From the NCBI GenBank assembly GCA_021793645.1, contig JAJYSJ010000006.1, forward strand, positions 3,867 through 67,866: a stretch of DNA of 64,000 bases. Direction: 5' to 3'. A program made the position numbers and the translations under genes. The DNA is from Bacillota bacterium (lineage in GTDB: Bacteria; Bacillota; Sulfobacillia; JAJZYS01; JAJYTV01). Positions 3,863 through 17,355 of the stretch are shown piece after piece; position 1 is the stretch's first letter; every line of letters starts with the position of its first letter. Under the pieces are notes generated by a model. That model did not search any database. It saw only the letters and a list, made by a program, of their open reading frames with translations, and was not told the origin of the DNA.

Positions 3863-5122
3863 TCAGGGCGTGACGGGCGCGTACACGGTGACCTCCGCGA
3901 CGTTTCCGGGCTTCACGAGCTCGTTGCCGGCGCCGAGCGCTCGGCCGACGACGAAGCCGGATGTCGGGCTGCCGCTCGGGAAGACAACCGTTAGGCGAGA
4001 CGTGCCGGCGGAGGAGCCGCCGTAGGTCACTGGGAAGCCGGCCTTCTGCAGGAGGGCCATCGTGTACTGGCTGCCGTAGAGCGTGATGGGGACGTCCTTC
4101 GGCTGGGGGAAGGGCGGCAGCCCCGTCCATGCCCCGGTGGAGCCGTACGGCTTGAGTGCCGCGGTGACGTTCGCCGCGTCCAGCACATCGTAGTAGGCGC
4201 CCTCGATGGCGTTCTCCTGGTTGACGCCGGGCAGCGGCATCGAGGCGAGCGCCATGGAATCGGCGTCGCTCCCGAGGGTCACCTTGCTTAGATGGGCGTG
4301 CGCGAGCGTCATTCCGAGCGCGAGCAGCTGGCTGTGCGTGAGGTTCGTCGCCACGTCCTTGCTCCAGGCGGAGATCAGCGACGGGATGTGCAGCGCTGCT
4401 TGCACCGGGTTCTTCAGCAGCTTGTCCTTCAGCGCAACCAGCACCTGCTGCTCCGCGCCCATGCGCTGGAAGTCGTTCGTCCGGAAGCTGTTGCCCGCGG
4501 CGTTCTGGCGGATGCGGATGTAGGCGAGGGCCCACGGGCCGGAGAGGCAGTGCCATCCGGGCTGGAAGTCTGCCTTGCTGTGGAGCGGGTCGTAGAGCCG
4601 GGCGGGGATGTAGATGTTCACGCAGTCGACGGCGTTGACCGCGTCGACGAACCCCTGGAAGTCGGTCGCGATGTAGGCGTGGATCGGCATGCCGGTGAAC
4701 CTGCTGACGACCTGCATGGCGACCTGCGGTCCGCGCTGCGGGCTCTGCGTCAGGCCGAGGAAGAAGCTCTCTTTGACCTTTGGTTCCACGACGCGCCAGC
4801 CGGGAAGCGCGATCAGGAGGTCGCGTGGGATGGAGATCAGGGTGACGTCCTTCGTCTTCGGGTTGATGTGCACGACCATCAGGATGTCGGCCTCCCCGCC
4901 GGACGTGCCGAGCGAGAGCGGACCCTGGGCCTGCCTCGCGTTGTTCCCGATCAGGAGGATGTTGTAGGGCACGTTCTGCGTGAACGAGGCCGCGGGCGGC
5001 GCTCCACCCGGGGCGGAAGACTGCCCCATCCAGCTCCGGGCGAAGGCGAAGGCGCCGACCAGCACGAGCACGATGACGAGAAGCCAGACGAACTTGGTGC
5101 GCACGTGGAACCTGTTTCTCAA
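3863..5122 (-). CDS. LytR-CpsA-Psr (LCP) family protein
   Basis: LCP proteins transfer undecaprenyl-linked glycopolymers such as teichoic acid or capsule onto peptidoglycan. This 419-residue protein has one N-terminal membrane segment (FVWLLVIVLVLVGAFAFA) and an extracellular LCP domain. The domain shows NILLIGNNAR, ADILMVVHINPKTKDVTLIS followed by IPRDLLI, and the conserved arginine region YIRIRQ...NDFQRMGAEQQVLVAL. The last 80 residues (from about DVPITLYGSQYTMALL) look like a separate LytR C-terminal domain. I chose TTG 5122 because AGGGAGG sits eight to nine bases upstream. A longer frame from 5185 overlaps the SGNH gene and is less likely. The stop of the SGNH gene is only 16 bases upstream, so the two are probably cotranscribed. 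Confidence 0.88.
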   Translation of the reverse strand: MRNRFHVRTKFVWLLVIVLVLVGAFAFARSWMGQSSAPGGAPPAASFTQNVPYNILLIGNNARQAQGPLSLGTSGGEADILMVVHINPKTKDVTLISIPRDLLIALPGWRVVEPKVKESFFLGLTQSPQRGPQVAMQVVSRFTGMPIHAYIATDFQGFVDAVNAVDCVNIYIPARLYDPLHSKADFQPGWHCLSGPWALAYIRIRQNAAGNSFRTNDFQRMGAEQQVLVALKDKLLKNPVQAALHIPSLISAWSKDVATNLTHSQLLALGMTLAHAHLSKVTLGSDADSMALASMPLPGVNQENAIEGAYYDVLDAANVTAALKPYGSTGAWTGLPPFPQPKDVPITLYGSQYTMALLQKAGFPVTYGGSSAGTSRLTVVFPSGSPTSGFVVGRALGAGNELVKPGNVAEVTVYAPVTP

Positions 5123-5138
5123 CCGGGTGCCCTCCCTG

Positions 5139-6122
5139 CTACCAGCCCGTGATCTGCTCCGGGTTCGTCGGCACGAGCTGGACATGGTAGATGAGCGCCA
5201 TCTCCCGGAGCACGTACGTGGCCAGTACGTCCTCGCCGGCGTAGGAGTAGTGGATGCCGTCCCCAGAACGCAGGGTCACGTTCTTGCCATTCACCATGGC
5301 GTTCGCCTGGAATGCGCCCTGCGGGTTCGAAAAGAGCTGCCATGTCGGCACGAAGGTCGCGTTCGGCTCAGAGGTCACGACCCGCTGGTAGATCGAGTTC
5401 AGGAGCTGCATTCCCTGGCTGTAGGATGGCTGCTGCATGTTCGGCATGCCGACCCAGAGCACGTACGCGCCGCTCGCCGTCGCCTCGCTCACCAGTTCTC
5501 GCACGCGCTCGGTGTAGGCGGTCTGCCAGGCCGCCGTCGGGAACTGCACGGCCGAGCCGTTGGCGTACAGGCCCTGCTCATCGTTGCCTCCCAGGCTGAT
5601 CAAGACGAGCTGGGGGTGGTATTCACGCAGGTCCGAGGCGAGTTCGGCCGCCCAGTTATAGAAGCCGGAGTTGGCAAGACCGGTTGAAGACTTGTCGAGT
5701 TGGATCAGACGCAGGCCCGAGTCCGGCGCGACGTGACGCTGAAGACCCCAGCCAAGGTCGTTGCCGAGCGAATCGCCGATCTCAAGGACTGTGCAGCTTC
5801 CGGCCGGCGCTGATTCGACCTGCCCTCTCAGAGCGAAGCCGCAACCGCCGCCGACCTGCGGCTCTGTGATCGAGCCGGTGAAGGCGCCGGGGATCTTGGG
5901 CACAGTCGGTGCGCCGGACCCTCCGGACGGAGTCTTCCGCGGGTTCGTCCCGCCCGGCCTTCCCTTCTTGTGGTGGATCGTCGGCGGGGGCCAGGCGAAC
6001 GTCTTGCGGACCGAGGGCGGCATGGCCTCCACAATCAACGCCGTGGTCAGGAGCGCCGCGAGAACGGTGAAGAGCACCGCGCGCAATCCCCAATGCGCAC
6101 TTCGGCGTTCCATCATCTGCAT
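5139..6122 (-). CDS. SGNH/GDSL-type hydrolase (DUF459-like), membrane-anchored
   Basis: This is an extracytoplasmic SGNH-fold esterase or acyltransferase partner of 327 residues. An N-terminal membrane segment (AVLFTVLAALLTTALIV) is followed by a Pro/Gly/Ser-rich linker and the SGNH domain. Catalytic blocks are visible: block I EIGDSLGNDLGWGL (nucleophile Ser), block III SLGGND, and block V DGIHYSYAG (Asp-x-x-His). Proteins of this type often act on O-acyl groups of cell-wall polymers. An acyltransferase 3 gene lies divergently 790 bases away and the LCP gene follows directly, so a role in glycopolymer acetylation is a reasonable inference. The start could also be one of the two ATGs two and three codons further in. 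Confidence 0.85.
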   Translation of the reverse strand: MQMMERRSAHWGLRAVLFTVLAALLTTALIVEAMPPSVRKTFAWPPPTIHHKKGRPGGTNPRKTPSGGSGAPTVPKIPGAFTGSITEPQVGGGCGFALRGQVESAPAGSCTVLEIGDSLGNDLGWGLQRHVAPDSGLRLIQLDKSSTGLANSGFYNWAAELASDLREYHPQLVLISLGGNDEQGLYANGSAVQFPTAAWQTAYTERVRELVSEATASGAYVLWVGMPNMQQPSYSQGMQLLNSIYQRVVTSEPNATFVPTWQLFSNPQGAFQANAMVNGKNVTLRSGDGIHYSYAGEDVLATYVLREMALIYHVQLVPTNPEQITGW

Positions 6123-6913
6123 CCCCGCCTGCGCGCGCCCTGCGGGGAGCGGTCAGGCTGCCGATCGCAGTGCCGCCGCGGCGCGAAAGTGATGTCCCCC
6201 GGAGCGCCGGGGGCGAGCACGCAACGCGAAGGATGTCGCGCACGTTCGAACGCGAGACGCCGAAGCAATTCCTCATCCCCTTGGAAAACCGATGGGCTGC
6301 GGGGCCCGTCCCGGAATGACTCCTTTGCCGGAACCCACGGCTGCTCCTGCCGAAACTGTGAGGACTGGCGCGAAGAACGTCAAGTAGGGAAGCAAGAATC
6401 CGGTCGGATCCTGGCGGAACGGCGTCGACGCGCAGTGCGCCACCGTCCCTCTGCTCTCCTCAGAACGTCTCCTCAGCGTGAACACCGTGACTGGACGCGC
6501 GTGATCGAGGGTCGCTACGCAGGCGGCGAGATCCAGCGCGTCGCAGGTGCAACTGCACACCGTCCGGGCCGTAGATTTGAGGGAGCTTTTCCAGCCGCCA
6601 AAGAGCAGCGGACGACCGGCACCACGATCCGCACGTTCCTTCCGCTCATGCCGACTATCCGCCTCGTGCTCGAAGCGCGGGACGAACGAACGTGTTCCCG
6701 CAGGCGGTCGCCTTTGGCAAGGCGCGCGCGGGTCAAGACTCGCGCCTCGCCAAAATCTGGTGCCAACGGAAAGAAACATCCACAAGGAGCCGCCGCGGAC
6801 ATTGTCGAAATTCGACAAAAAGGGGTCGTACACCCGGGCAACGCCGGGAGACGGCGGCTTGCCTGGACGGGCGCTGCGACCCGTTGCATCTGTGTCGGAG
6901 GTGGCGAAGGAGA
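6123..6913. other. Intergenic region between divergent SGNH and acyltransferase genes
   Basis: I find no convincing gene in this 791-base gap. Open frames on both strands are basic and low-complexity and have no recognisable domain. The gap contains a GC hairpin at 6196-6213 (CCCCCGG/CCGGGGG) in the leader of the SGNH gene. It also holds the TTGTCGAA dyad at 6802-6818, described separately. Confidence 0.5.
6802..6818. promoter_or_regulatory. Inverted pair of Spo0A-type boxes
   Basis: TTGTCGAA and its exact reverse complement TTCGACAA are separated by one base. TGTCGAA is the established core of the Bacillus Spo0A box. The dyad lies about 100 bases before the acyltransferase start and 680 bases before the SGNH gene. 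Binding by Spo0A is an inference from the motif only. Confidence 0.45.
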
Positions 6914-8131
6914 TTGGCGTCCCAGCTCACTGAAGCGATTCCTCGCCGCATTCCGATCCACGGCTTCCCGCGGGTAGCACCGCGCCAGGAGTTCCGCCGC
7001 GACATCCAGGGCCTGCGTGCGCTCGCCGTCCTGCTGGTCGTCGGCAACCACGCCGACATACCGGGATTCGCCGGGGGATACATCGGCGTGGACGTCTTCT
7101 TCGTGATCAGCGGCTACGTCATCACGCAACTGCTGATGCGCGAGTCGGAGAAGAGCCTGCGCGCCGCGCTGACGGACTTCTACTCCCGGCGCATTCGCCG
7201 CATCGTGCCGGCGGCCACGGTTACGCTCGTGCTCACCCTGCTGGTGGCCTGGTTGGTTCTCGGACCGCGTCTCAACCCCTACCTGCCAGGAGACGTACGC
7301 TGGGCCTCGCTCTTCGCCGCGAACTTTCGGCTGATCGCCACGGGCAGCAACTACTTCGTGCCGGGGATCTTCCCATCGCTCATCACGCAGTTCTGGTCTC
7401 TCGCGGTGGAAGAGCAGTTCTATCTCGCGTTTCCGCTGATCGTCCTCCTGATAGCGCACTTCGTGCCGCCGCAGGGCCGCCTGCGGGTGCTCACGATCAC
7501 CCTCGCCGTCGCGGTCGCGGCGTCCGCGCTCTGGTCGATCCACATCTCCGCCGCCGACCCTACCCCTGCGTACTACTCGCCTTTCACACGGTTCTGGGAA
7601 CTCGGCCTCGGCGGCTTCCTCGCCGCCATCACGACGCGCAAGCCCATGCGTTCCGTGTGGAGCGAGCGCATCGCGGTTGTGCTCGGCATCGCGCTGCTCG
7701 CGATCGCGCTCGTCGATCTGAGCGCGACGAGCACCTACCCGGGCTGGCTCGCCTGGCTACCCTGCGGGGCGACCGCGCTGTTCATCTGGGCGGGCGCCGG
7801 CGGCATGCGTACTACCGTCACCAAGGTCCTTTCGACCCGTCCGCTTGTGTACATTGGCGCCATCTCCTACTCGCTCTACCTCACGCACTTCGTCTGGCTG
7901 ACCCTTCCAAAGCAGCTGGCGGTCCCGCTCACCGGCTGGCCGTGGACGCCGATCGAGATCGCGGGCGCCATACTCACCGCGATGCTCTCCTACCATCTGC
8001 TGGAGAACCCGATCCGCCACTCGCGCAAGCTGGCGACGGACGGGGTGGCGACCGTGCTCGTTCTTCTCGTCTGCGTCGCTACATCCTGGACGACGGCGAT
8101 CATCGTCGCGCACTTCGCGCACATCGGCTAA
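6914..8131 (+). CDS. Acyltransferase 3 family membrane protein (OafA/YrhL-like)
   Basis: This integral-membrane O-acyltransferase moves acetyl-type groups across the membrane to surface sugars. It opens with the family signature EFRRDIQGLRALAVLLVVGNH followed by GGYIGVDVFFVISGYVIT. It also carries the conserved FWSLAVEEQFYLAFPLIV and a series of about ten membrane helices. It lacks the C-terminal SGNH domain that some relatives have fused; a separate SGNH gene lies upstream on the other strand. I chose TTG 6914 (405 residues) because GGAGGT sits 11 bases upstream. The frame continues to an ATG at 6692, but that extension is Arg-rich and unlike the family. Confidence 0.85.
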   Translation: MASQLTEAIPRRIPIHGFPRVAPRQEFRRDIQGLRALAVLLVVGNHADIPGFAGGYIGVDVFFVISGYVITQLLMRESEKSLRAALTDFYSRRIRRIVPAATVTLVLTLLVAWLVLGPRLNPYLPGDVRWASLFAANFRLIATGSNYFVPGIFPSLITQFWSLAVEEQFYLAFPLIVLLIAHFVPPQGRLRVLTITLAVAVAASALWSIHISAADPTPAYYSPFTRFWELGLGGFLAAITTRKPMRSVWSERIAVVLGIALLAIALVDLSATSTYPGWLAWLPCGATALFIWAGAGGMRTTVTKVLSTRPLVYIGAISYSLYLTHFVWLTLPKQLAVPLTGWPWTPIEIAGAILTAMLSYHLLENPIRHSRKLATDGVATVLVLLVCVATSWTTAIIVAHFAHIG

Positions 8132-8559
8132 TCGACGCCGCAAGCGGTCGTCGTTGGACGCCTCGGCGATCTCCTGCGCGCCGCGGGGTCAACAGGGGGT
8201 CTTTCAGACCGAGAACGGCCTTGTCTTCCTTACTTCGACCGGCGGCCCGATGAGTGACTCCAACAGGGAATAGGGATTTCCCAAGGGTGTTGCACGGGGC
8301 CGGGCTGCGTTGTTGCCGTCTTCATGACCCTGAGACACACGACGGCGAGTAACGTGAACACGCCAAAGCATATTGAACGCCTGACGTCCTTCTGCACCGG
8401 GCAGCGTACACTTCGGCGGCAAGTTCGGTGGTAGTTCGGCATCGCCGTCAAACTCTGATCCAGACGATGGAAACGACGAACCCGCAATCCCTGGCGGAAA
8501 GCGGGTTTCGAATAGCAAATATGGCAAAAGCTTGGCGCGCCCGGCAGGATCGAACCTGT
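8132..8559. other. Intergenic region with tRNA-like remnant
   Basis: No supported gene lies in this gap between convergent genes. It contains an imperfect hairpin at 8479-8507 (AACCCGC/GCGGGTT), which may stop transcription from either side. It also holds a tRNA 3'-end-like sequence at 8533-8558. Confidence 0.45.
8533..8558 (-). other. tRNA 3'-end-like sequence (possible attachment-site remnant)
   Basis: On the minus strand the sequence reads CAGGTTCGATCCTG and then CCGGGCGCGCCA. It resembles a T-arm with its GTTCGA loop, the 3' acceptor strand and the terminal CCA. The loop has six bases instead of seven, and no 5' tRNA half is present. It starts 2 bases after the stop of the RuvB-like gene. 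Integrated elements often carry such a duplicated tRNA end, but this is inference. Confidence 0.35.
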
Positions 8560-9174
8560 TTAGTTGGTCTTTTCTATGTCGATTACCATGCCTGTCTCTG
8601 CGTCGACGCGAACCGTCCAGGTGTCGTGCTTCAGTTCGCTGGGCTTGACAATCATGCCGAACAAGCCCCTCTGTTCGGGGGAACGCCATTCCGTAACGAT
8701 CGAGCACCTATATTCCCCCGACTCGTGGACTCGGTCCATGATGTTTACGGCGTAAGACAGTACGCCCATCCCAGCGCACCGTCCCCTAACCTCGGCAAGT
8801 GCTTGCTCCCTCGCACTGGAGATAGCCCGGTGATAGGTCAACAATTCCTTGGCGGTCATCCTCTGTACATGGCCGGAGACCGTGCCCGGCAATTGCACGG
8901 GCTTCGAAGCCAACAAGATGATTCCAAACTTCGGCAAGTCGATTCTGAGACGCCGAGCGCCAGGTCCGCGACCTATCACCATGTCCAAGTGGAAGGATTC
9001 GGCAGCCGGAAGCAACAGGTCATTCCATATTCCCTGTGACACCCGTTCCGGGCCTTGGATCAGGAGCATGTCGCCGGGGTCTAACGATGTGAGCACGGCT
9101 GCGGCGTCACCGGGCCGCTCCAACGCTCGCGCCAAATTGCTACATTGATCTGACTTAGTCCCGGTCTTTGGCAT
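8560..9174 (-). CDS. RuvB-derived protein lacking Walker motifs
   Basis: The 204-residue protein contains a clear slice of the RuvB AAA+ domain at about residues 15-95. RALERPGDAAAVLTSLDPGD matches the RuvB stretch before Walker B. ESFHLDMVIGRGPGARRLRI matches the pre-sensor-1 beta-hairpin of RuvB that contacts RuvA. Walker A is absent altogether. The Walker B box, normally DEIHRL, reads QGPERV. The C-terminal 100 residues have no RuvB winged helix. They end in a PepSY-like strand (WTVRVDAETGMVIDIEK). It cannot be an ATPase; a RuvA- or RuvB-binding modulator is one possibility. The ATG has no clear Shine-Dalgarno sequence. Base composition is less GC-rich than the neighbours, which suggests transfer. 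Confidence 0.65.
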   Translation of the reverse strand: MPKTGTKSDQCSNLARALERPGDAAAVLTSLDPGDMLLIQGPERVSQGIWNDLLLPAAESFHLDMVIGRGPGARRLRIDLPKFGIILLASKPVQLPGTVSGHVQRMTAKELLTYHRAISSAREQALAEVRGRCAGMGVLSYAVNIMDRVHESGEYRCSIVTEWRSPEQRGLFGMIVKPSELKHDTWTVRVDAETGMVIDIEKTN

Positions 9175-9376
9175 TTATACATTCGCGCCGAACTGCTGCG
9201 CGCGCGGTGCGCCCCCGTGACAATACAAAACCTCGCCACGCCCAACTTCGAATGGTCACGTGTGCCAGTCGTCGAACGTCGCGTATCGGAGGCGGTCATT
9301 CTCATCCACGTCGGGAGGTCAGAGTTCGACGGTTGGCCCGAGGTCGATCGTCAAGTGGGTGCTGGTGCGAATCCAG

Positions 9377-10516
9377 TCACCTCCTGGCCGCCCAACGTCG
9401 GCCGCCGTCGCTGGTGACGACAAGCCAAACGTGACCGGCTCGTTTGGCGATGGCCCAACCGAGCTGGGGATTTAGAAAATCGATGGCCGTAATTGCGAAA
9501 CCTCTGGGGAGTTCTGCGGCATACCAGTGCTTGCCGCCATCCACGGTTCGCCACAGGCGGTGTCCACCGGCTGCCCAGATGTGCAGTGGATCGGTTGAGG
9601 TGTAGACACTCCCTGGGACTCTCACAGGCGTTGACCAGTGCGCGCCGCCATCGTGGGTCGTTGTAAGCCATGTCACTGGGGTCTGAAGCTGCATGACGAC
9701 AGGCATCACGCCGGTGGTCGCCGAGAAGAATGTCGGGGGATAGGTGGCCAGCTGGTATTCCCTCAACGGGGTGCTGCCAAGTGGCACTCCCCCGTAAAAC
9801 GTTTCCACGCTCGTTGAACCGCCCGTGCGACCCCATGTCACCCAACCGGGGGTTGGCGGGATCTGACCTATCCAACCCGCTCCGGCATTTGCCGCCGCAA
9901 AGGCGATGCCCGTTGCCGGGAGGCCGGTGAACGTCTGCATTGCAGTCCACGTCTTGCCCGTGTTTCCCGAGCGATACACGGTATATGTGTCGCGCCCCAT
10001 CCCGCCGCGAATGTTGCCCATGGCGTACCAGACGGATGGGCTCGCAAAACTGACGAAGGCCGCGTCGGTGGTTTGGGCAGGCATGCGTACGGCCTTCCAG
10101 GGGCCTCCAGCGTCAGAAGAGATGTATGTGATCCCGGCGAGCCCGACGAGCGCAACCTGTGACGACCCAAGTTGCCGCAGGGCCACTGGCGCTGCAGTGT
10201 TCAGCTGTGTCGCAAAGACGCGAAACCAGGTACGCCCACCGTTTCCCGTGCGGTAGATCGTGAGAGGTCCGCTGTTGGCGCCCGGCGGTTCGTCTGCTGC
10301 CAATGCGAAGCCAGTACTGCGTGAGACAAACAGGATCTGCGTGGCCAGAAAGCGGAGCGCGGGTCCCTTAATACTGATTTTTGGTGCGATAGGGCCGGGA
10401 TCCTGAGGCTGAGTTTGCGACGACACAATCGCAGCGAGGAGTACAGCAGCCCCTATAGCGACTGCTGCGGTCCAAGCAACGACCCGTGTAACGGACTTTC
10501 GTCCATCCCGCTCCAT
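9377..10516 (-). CDS. Exported Asp-box (BNR-type) beta-propeller protein
   Basis: The 379-residue protein has an N-terminal membrane or signal segment (VVAWTAAVAIGAAVLLAAIV). A propeller domain follows with six Asp-box-like turns: YRTGNGGRTW, YISSDAGGPW, YRSGNTGKTW, TTTHDGGAHW, WRTVDGGKHW and VTSDGGRRW. Such folds occur in sialidases, VPS10 domains and YCF48-like assembly factors. No sialidase catalytic residues are evident, so the binding partner is unknown. Start ATG 10516 is supported by AGGGAGG eight bases upstream; the longer frame from 10573 is not needed. It is preceded by a long AT-richer leader with a TATAAT at 10655-10660. Confidence 0.8.
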   Translation of the reverse strand: MERDGRKSVTRVVAWTAAVAIGAAVLLAAIVSSQTQPQDPGPIAPKISIKGPALRFLATQILFVSRSTGFALAADEPPGANSGPLTIYRTGNGGRTWFRVFATQLNTAAPVALRQLGSSQVALVGLAGITYISSDAGGPWKAVRMPAQTTDAAFVSFASPSVWYAMGNIRGGMGRDTYTVYRSGNTGKTWTAMQTFTGLPATGIAFAAANAGAGWIGQIPPTPGWVTWGRTGGSTSVETFYGGVPLGSTPLREYQLATYPPTFFSATTGVMPVVMQLQTPVTWLTTTHDGGAHWSTPVRVPGSVYTSTDPLHIWAAGGHRLWRTVDGGKHWYAAELPRGFAITAIDFLNPQLGWAIAKRAGHVWLVVTSDGGRRWAARR

Positions 10517-10869
10517 AGAGTTGTCCTCCCTTCCGCGGTTCACATCTTGACACCATCGAACACCGTGTTCCATGATTCATGACGCCATTCCCAGGGATGA
10601 GAGTGCAGGCCATTAGGCGATCCATGCGCCCGTGCTCCTAAATGCAGTTGTGCAATTATATTACCGAGTCTCTGTTTTCAGCCGGCTCAACGACCTCCAA
10701 GGGTACCTTTTCAGAAGGCTTCTGTGGGTCGCGTTAAGCCGGTTCCCCGCCGAGCCGCAACGGGTGTCGCCGGTTCCAGCGGGGAACTTTATTGTTCAGC
10801 GCGGATTTCTATTGATCAGCGCGAAACACTTTTGTCGGTCCACAATACACGATCGAAGCCTCTTAAGTC
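10517..10869. other. Intergenic region with a long inverted repeat and a TATAAT box
   Basis: This 353-base gap lies between the glmS stop and the propeller gene. The arms GTTCCCCGC (10742-10750) and GCGGGGAAC (10779-10787) could form a hairpin that ends the glmS transcript; no T-run follows on the minus strand. A perfect minus-strand TATAAT (10660-10655) without a matching -35 may start the propeller-gene transcript. There is no gene here. Confidence 0.5.
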
Positions 10870-15752: not shown

Positions 15753-16387
15753 CGGTCTGCTCCCGCGCCCAGCGCAAAGTACGCGAGCGACTGGAGCTCC
15801 GTCGTCAGATCGACGTTCTGCACGCTGACCTGACGCTTTTCGAGCTTGGCAGGCGCAAAGTTCAGCACAGCCTTCACCTCCGCTGCGCAGAGCTGGTCGA
15901 AGACGTCCCGGGCGTTCTGCTCCGGTACCGCGATCACGGCAATCCGAATGCCGAGGTCCTTGAGCGTCGTCATCAGTTCGTGCATCGGCCGGACCCTGAG
16001 GCCGGAGATTTCGGTTCCGATCTTCTTCGGGTCAGCGTCGAACACCGCAGCGACGTAGGTGTCGCGCGCACCGAGGCTGGCGTACCGGATCAGAGCGGTG
16101 CCGAGGTTTCCTGCACCCACCAAAGCGACCGGGACGGCCGCCGTGAGCCCCAGAATGCGGCGCAGGTGCTGCGTCAGCTGCGCAACATCGTAGCCAAGTC
16201 CCCGCGTGCCGAATGCGCCAAAATAGGCGAGGTCCTTGCGAATCTGCTCGGAAGAATACCCAGAGCGCGTCGCGAGGTCGGCCGAGGATGTGACTTCGAC
16301 GCCTTCGGCCGCCAGATCCTCCAGTACCCGGAGATATAGAGGCAGCCGTCGCACGGCGACGGCTGGGATGCGGCGCGGCGGCTTCAA
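15749..16387 (-). CDS. rex: Redox-sensing transcriptional repressor Rex
   Basis: Rex senses the NADH/NAD+ ratio and represses fermentation and respiration genes until NADH rises. The 212-residue protein has an N-terminal winged helix (LPLYLRVLEDLAAEGVEVTSSADLA, SSEQIRKDLAYFGAFGTRGLGY) and a Rossmann domain with VALVGAGNLGTAL. The C-terminal swapped helix is present (VQNVDLTTELQSLAYFAL). TTG 16387 overlaps the hepT stop as TTGA and has GGAG eight bases upstream. A Rex-like half-site lies in the operon promoter region, which would allow autoregulation. Confidence 0.95.
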   Translation of the reverse strand: MKPPRRIPAVAVRRLPLYLRVLEDLAAEGVEVTSSADLATRSGYSSEQIRKDLAYFGAFGTRGLGYDVAQLTQHLRRILGLTAAVPVALVGAGNLGTALIRYASLGARDTYVAAVFDADPKKIGTEISGLRVRPMHELMTTLKDLGIRIAVIAVPEQNARDVFDQLCAAEVKAVLNFAPAKLEKRQVSVQNVDLTTELQSLAYFALGAGADR

Positions 16388-17355
16388 AGCTGACGCTCCA
16401 GGACGAAGTCCGCCATTGCCAGCAGTGATGTCTTGGCGGGTACATCGATCAGGGGGTGGATGCTGCGCTTGGCCGTGTCGATGAAGCGGTGAGCCAGTTC
16501 CTCCGCATAGGAGAAGCTACCCGCCTGTCCGAGGATCTCGCGAACCGTGCTCACTGAGTCTCCGGTCACTTCCGGGTTCTCCGCGATCTCGCGCAGCTCC
16601 GCGCGGCGCTGCGACTGGCGCAAGCCATGGATGACCGGTAGCGTGATCACATGGGCCCGCAGGTCCGAGCCGATTTCCTTGCCGAGCGTCTTCGGCTCAG
16701 CGGTCAGGTCGAGAAGGTCATCGATGATCTGGAACCCCATGCCCATCGCATATCCGTAGTCATAAAGCGCCTGCTGCACCTCACCCGATGCCCCACTAGC
16801 AGCTGCGCCGGCACGACAGCTTTCAGCGATGAAGACCGCAGTCTTCTGGGCAATGCGGTCGAGGTACTGATCCTCGTTCGGGAGTGCATTCTGGCGAGAC
16901 TGAACATTTTGCGCGATCTCTCCGCTGCACATGCGATAGACGACATCCGCCATGATGCCAACCACCCGGCCCACCCGGACCTCCGACAGGAGGGAGAAGG
17001 CCTTCGCGAACAAGTAATCGCCTGTCAGGACGGCGGTGTGTTCGCCCCATTGCGAGTGGACCGTCGGTTTGCCGCGACGCAACTCCGCGCGGTCGATCAC
17101 GTCGTCATGGGCCAAGGTAGCCATATGAATCAGTTCTGCGGCGGCGGCAACGGGCCGTACGTCCTCATACGCATAATTGCCAAACTTCGCGCCGAACAGG
17201 ACCAATGCGGGACGCAGACGCTTCCCCCCAGCACGCAAGAGGTGGAGCGCCACGTCGCGGACCACCTGCGGACCTTCGTCCAGCAGTTGGGCCAGGTACT
17301 CTTCGACATCGGAGAGGTCGGCCGCGATGTCCGCGAACACCGACCGAAGATCCAA
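16384..17355 (-). CDS. hepT: Polyprenyl diphosphate synthase, large subunit (HepT-like)
   Basis: This trans-prenyltransferase builds the all-trans polyprenyl chain, most likely for menaquinone. The 323-residue protein has the first aspartate-rich motif in LAHDDVIDRAELRRGKPTVH and the second in GFQIIDDLLDLT. GGKRLRPALV, which binds IPP, is near the N-terminus. TTG 17355 has a GGCGGGTGG Shine-Dalgarno sequence; an ATG at 17379 is the alternative but has none. It is the first gene of the operon, preceded by an extended -10 promoter. The small HepS-type subunit is not seen here, so chain length cannot be predicted. Confidence 0.92.
   Translation of the reverse strand: MDLRSVFADIAADLSDVEEYLAQLLDEGPQVVRDVALHLLRAGGKRLRPALVLFGAKFGNYAYEDVRPVAAAAELIHMATLAHDDVIDRAELRRGKPTVHSQWGEHTAVLTGDYLFAKAFSLLSEVRVGRVVGIMADVVYRMCSGEIAQNVQSRQNALPNEDQYLDRIAQKTAVFIAESCRAGAAASGASGEVQQALYDYGYAMGMGFQIIDDLLDLTAEPKTLGKEIGSDLRAHVITLPVIHGLRQSQRRAELREIAENPEVTGDSVSTVREILGQAGSFSYAEELAHRFIDTAKRSIHPLIDVPAKTSLLAMADFVLERQL

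Follow-up and report, generated by a model that had tools for sequence, protein, structure and literature searches.

A RuvB-derived open reading frame lacking the ATPase motifs and retaining a putative RuvA-docking face beside a tRNA-Arg scar

RuvB is the AAA+ motor of Holliday-junction branch migration, and a short open reading frame (ORF) in a Bacillota genome resembles one segment of it. Does this ORF encode a motor-less protein still able to dock on RuvA, or is it what is left of a broken gene? We addressed this question in a stretch of 64,000 nucleotides (the window) that contains the ORF, its flanking genes and a fragment of a tRNA gene. An earlier note, made from the letters of the window alone, had read the ORF as a RuvB fragment that kept the RuvA-contact hairpin and lost both Walker motifs, and had proposed a dominant inhibitor or adaptor of RuvAB, possibly from a mobile element. 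The parts of the ORF that matter for this question are as follows:

8560..9174, minus strand: RuvB-like ORF of 204 amino acids, a RuvB-derived segment followed by an unrelated tail
9076..9126, minus strand: residues 17-33, ALERPGDAAAVLTSLDP, equivalent of helix alpha3; 9 of 9 invariant RuvB columns kept; helix at 21-29 in the structure model
9040..9057, minus strand: residues 40-45, QGPERV in place of the Walker B DEIHRL, from the alignment to RuvB
8926..8997, minus strand: residues 60-83, SFHLDMVIGRGPGARRLRIDLPKF, presensor-1 beta-hairpin; 10 of 10 invariant columns kept; strands at 62-67 and 74-79 in the model
8563..8901, minus strand: residues 92-204, tail lacking RuvB homology, with codon periodicity; its last 18 residues weakly PepSY-like

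Extent of the RuvB homology and coding signals

Profile search of the 204 residues against the RuvB N-terminal domain gave a significant match (Pfam RuvB_N, PF05496; E = 3e-14, 53.5 bits with a cut-off of 27), aligning ORF residues 15-91 with profile positions 66-141 of 159. The ORF also matched RuvB chains in the PDB with E-values down to 2.4e-15 and, over a partial stretch, the NCBIfam model TIGR00635 (ruvB; 1.1e-13), at 50.9 bits against an equivalog cut-off of 299. The homologous part spans only alpha3-beta3-alpha4-hairpin-beta4 and ends at about residue 91, with an identity of at most 58% to RuvBs of the same family over ORF residues 17-84. The statement of the earlier note that the match begins before Walker B, runs through the presensor-1 hairpin and then leaves the family was thus borne out.

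So was the loss of both Walker motifs. Neither the ORF nor any same-strand frame of the upstream region 9175-9700 contains the Walker A P-loop GxxxxGK[TS], so that the ORF is not a simple frameshifted version of a full ruvB. The two grounds on which the earlier note would have given up its reading, lack of a significant RuvB profile match and a complete P-loop upstream, were thus not encountered. At Walker B the RuvB sequence DVLFIDEIHRL aligns with DMLLIQGPERV in the ORF, which does not fit hhhhDE, and the changes D40Q, E41G and H43E all fall at invariant RuvB columns. The emphasis on the Walker motifs and the hairpin needed correction, however, in that other motor elements have gone too and more of the RuvA-binding site has stayed. 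The sensor-1 stretch GATTR of RuvB is LLASK in the ORF; the arginine-finger segment, the lid with sensor 2 (GTPRIANR) and the C-terminal winged helix are not recognizable in residues 92-204, whilst helix alpha3, which together with the hairpin makes up the RuvA-binding site, is kept as well. Judged on four defining features of the TIGR00635 equivalog, none of which was found, the predicted ORF product is not a RuvB, but it may yet act on RuvA, the partner of RuvB.

The tail, which makes up over half of the protein, scores no better against the RuvB profile than shuffled sequence, and we detected no known family in it. A permissive HMM-HMM alignment that carried RuvB homology through the lid to residue 157 was rejected for this reason, as the tail alone scores like shuffles. 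At its extreme end, in the 18 residues TWTVRVDAETGMVIDIEK, the tail has a sub-threshold similarity to the final portion of the PepSY profile (PF03413; E about 0.1, 13.4 bits against a gathering cut-off of 24), a hint that does not amount to membership. No defence (PADLOC) or phage (PHROGs) family matched significantly.

The ORF starts with ATG, has a stop codon immediately before it, and has a GC content by codon position of 0.57/0.46/0.69, a pattern like that of the other genes of the window. Its third-position GC is lower than in most window genes, the neighbours included, and low for the genome. None of 20000 shuffles equalled the codon periodicity of the whole ORF and only 6 of 20000 matched or beat that of the tail alone, which favours coding status for the ORF, tail included. 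Comparison with ruvB genes gave mean identities of 0.53/0.77/0.28 by codon position; this profile reads as a protein-coding pattern, although distant ruvBs have diverged from one another at third positions too. The open frame by itself proves little, because about a third of neutral-decay simulations, in which real ruvB genes were decayed to the same identity, also stayed free of stop codons; shuffling the bases of the region still yields a 204-codon frame in 3.7% of cases. No Shine-Dalgarno sequence is visible before any candidate start, and we saw no sigma-70-like promoter for the ORF.

Selective retention of alpha3 and the presensor-1 hairpin

Structural work on RuvAB showed that domain III of RuvA binds a 'hydrophobic composite interface' formed by alpha3 and the presensor-1 hairpin of RuvB (Wald et al. 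2022, PMC9477746). From the order of the elements, residues 17-33 probably correspond to alpha3 of that study, since alpha4 bears the trans-acting signature motif and the model helix 21-29 is the sole one before beta3, the low-confidence extreme N-terminus aside. Because both alpha3 and the hairpin are kept, and together make up the published site for RuvA domain III, the surviving segment would be the RuvA-docking face.

We compared retention across the segment using columns at least 97% invariant in 38 RuvBs from the phylum, with element boundaries set by hand. The ORF agrees with RuvB at all 19 invariant columns of alpha3 and the hairpin, at 6 of 15 in beta3/Walker-B and alpha4 (residues 34-59) and at 0 of 7 in beta4/sensor 1. 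The difference between the interface and beta3/alpha4 is significant (Fisher p = 9.5e-5), and 1.3% of the neutral-decay simulation runs kept as many invariant columns as the ORF does. At other structural positions the changes in the ORF are mostly conservative. The claim that the interaction hairpin was selectively retained relative to the ATPase residues therefore finds real support in these counts, and the contrast is the pattern that would be expected of a RuvA-binding decoy or adaptor.

A structure predicted from the single ORF sequence was unusable (pLDDT 37.7). With a shallow alignment built on viral RuvBs, most of residues 21-80 were modelled at pLDDT 70-89, a range that the tail did not reach. 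The best Foldseek matches for the model of the RuvB segment were RuvB chains, among them that of the RuvB-RuvA domain III complex 1ixs; neither the model nor this search is independent evidence of the fold, because RuvB rows were in the alignment. As the isolated alpha3-beta3-alpha4-hairpin-beta4 unit lacks the AAA+ strands beta1 and beta2, it may not fold alone. A phylogenetic origin of the RuvB segment was also sought; the tree gave no resolution, and the query branch was far too long.

Flanking DNA and the search for relatives

The ORF ends at a piece of a tRNA gene:

8533..8558, minus strand: 3' end of a tRNA-Arg gene with one T-loop base missing, 1 bp after the ORF stop; an attachment-site-like scar
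8467..8558, minus strand: the same tRNA-Arg 3' end with a terminator-like hairpin; contig C23 carries a tRNA-Arg(ACG) that matches it, downstream flank included, at 80% identity

A duplicated tRNA 3' end is what a border of mobile-element cargo would be expected to carry, and the scar is arranged as the distal end of an integrated element would be. The other border was not found: neither the window nor the remainder of the contig (C88) has a tRNA gene, and no second attachment site pairs with the scar on this contig. As the rest of C88 carries no intact tRNA-Arg, any element here would be a relic. A crude motif search of the window and the rest of C88 found no integrase. The mobile-element origin suggested by the earlier note thus stands in part: the scar, the low third-position GC and the absence of a match in sister species speak for it.

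Beyond the scar, positions 3875-8284 of the window share 93.7% identity with contig C252 of sister genome G002, compared with 78.7% for the glmS-glmM flank. This stretch encodes LytR-CpsA-Psr, SGNH/DUF459 and acyltransferase proteins, and we read it as a transferred cell-surface cassette. No DNA counterpart of the ORF lies downstream of glmS in the sister genomes. Between the ORF and glmS, positions 9377-10573 encode a YCF48/sortilin-like repeat protein of 398 amino acids (Pfam PSII_BNR, Sortilin-Vps10); in three genomes of the same genus the DNA downstream of glmS held no match to this gene either.

We found no relatives of the ORF among about 535 distinct genomes of the phylum (a set of 200 relatives and a partly overlapping set of 398 genomes of the phylum), and none in three genomes of the same genus. 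The viral contigs yielded none, and the genome contigs none for the whole ORF or the tail; the plasmid and phage collections held no match covering 80% of the ORF. The earlier note had called for relatives sharing the C-terminal domain, and this search came back empty, with no relatives of the tail alone among 154 genomes of the class or in the genome contigs. The genome-contig and single-protein viral scans are sensitive to close relatives only, so that a distant family may exist elsewhere. The matches that we followed up all turned out to be ordinary RuvBs, ruvB pieces at contig edges or chance hits, and the searches turned up no motor-less RuvB mimic combining a RuvA-docking face with a new domain.

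Among the rejected candidates were weak matches to the tail in five genomes (G057, G041, G023, G124 and G125). The match at locus L034 (G057) runs along a helix-rich stretch of an apparently different protein, and L035 and L037 gave nothing significant. Second copies of the RuvB hairpin in G095 and G343 proved to be contig-edge pieces. That in G095 is by eye a ruvA/ruvB chimera (L059:1-210, contig C5), where a contig edge fuses ruvA- and ruvB-like pieces that were probably rearranged or misassembled. All viral RuvB loci examined carry a P-loop.

Readings of the ORF and other tRNA-Arg sites in the genome

A frameshifted or truncated ordinary ruvB, or an artefact of assembly, is the least probable explanation, and one that we regard as largely refuted. 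The assembly is in 94 contigs and contig-edge ruvB pieces are known in other genomes (G095:C5, G343:C134), but the ORF sits 12 kb inside a 144-kb contig. The upstream DNA lacks a P-loop in any frame, and the tail lacks the C-terminal half of RuvB. The genome's own ruvB is separate and intact on contig C12, in a ruvC-ruvA-ruvB operon with a RuvA of 205 amino acids (L002:1997-2614), and the ORF is only 46-49% identical in protein sequence to this native RuvB over the shared part.

Our leading working hypothesis, which we hold tentatively and at less than an even chance, is that the ORF encodes a horizontally acquired derivative of RuvB in which the motor is gone and the RuvA-docking face survives. 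Besides the retention contrast and the codon periodicity, the intact operon of the host, which supplies a RuvA, speaks for it. Its chief competitor is a serious one that we rank just below it, as a possible reading: a divergent ruvB-like gene or element cargo, acquired horizontally, may have been cut and fused at a tRNA-Arg hotspot, leaving a functionless chimeric frame that has not yet been stopped. Such a remnant would account for the absence of relatives anywhere searched, the three same-genus genomes included, for the missing Shine-Dalgarno and promoter-like sites, and for the position of the ORF, which abuts both the scar and a recently transferred cassette. It is also consistent with other tRNA-Arg 3'-end copies in the genome, which adjoin integrase- or transposase-like frames, and with the frequency of equally long frames in the shuffled region. 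Against it stand the non-random retention of alpha3 and the hairpin relative to the motor elements, the mostly conservative changes elsewhere in the structure, and the coding periodicity that extends into the tail. It is unlikely, in our estimate, that the ORF product is functional and employs its piece of the RuvB fold to contact something other than RuvA (for example RuvB or another DNA-processing complex), with the tail as the active part. The size of the tail, its coding periodicity and its unrelatedness to RuvB would fit such a role, but the surface that survives is the one published for RuvA binding, and nothing points to another partner.

If the ORF does encode a motor-less protein with the RuvA-docking face, it would have been brought in horizontally by an element whose attachment site was a tRNA-Arg gene and which left only the scar behind. 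The protein would bind domain III of the host RuvA through alpha3 and the hairpin and, lacking an ATPase, compete with RuvB for RuvA, causing dominant-negative inhibition of branch migration. Alternatively, it might tether its own tail to RuvA-bound Holliday junctions. This fuller account, of a mobile-element protein that joins the docking face to a new domain and, by capturing RuvA domain III, blocks or diverts branch migration, we consider rather doubtful. Were RuvA binding to be found, the protein would be a natural inhibitor or adaptor of RuvAB, a type of recombination control that we did not find in the literature searched. It could serve directly as a tool for telling RuvA docking apart from the motor function of RuvB, and would suggest that elements at tRNA attachment sites modulate host branch migration. 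A remnant, in turn, would be an instructive case of recombination at tRNA hotspots leaving convincing-looking chimeric ORFs.

Further copies of the tRNA-Arg 3' end lie on contigs C91 and C14 of this genome, with transposase- or integrase-like neighbours, and with copies at several sites the tRNA-Arg genes look like integration hotspots. On C14 (L105:8811-16527) a distance of 7.2 kb separates an intact tRNA-Arg(CCG) from a duplicate of its 3' end with the hairpin that follows; by eye, IS607-like and TnpB-like frames lie between the copies, and an integrase-like C-terminal frame (16189-16527), called by eye with no profile search, lies beyond the second. On C91, half a tRNA-Arg gene, comprising the anticodon loop and everything 3' of it (L104:902-953), adjoins a transposase-like frame at 3-698. 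Downstream of tRNA-Arg(ACG) on C23, PADLOC identified a Gabija pair (L087:7396-10605), made up of a GajB-like helicase (7926-9002, minus strand; 1.3e-122) and GajA (8989-10605, minus strand; 9e-194).
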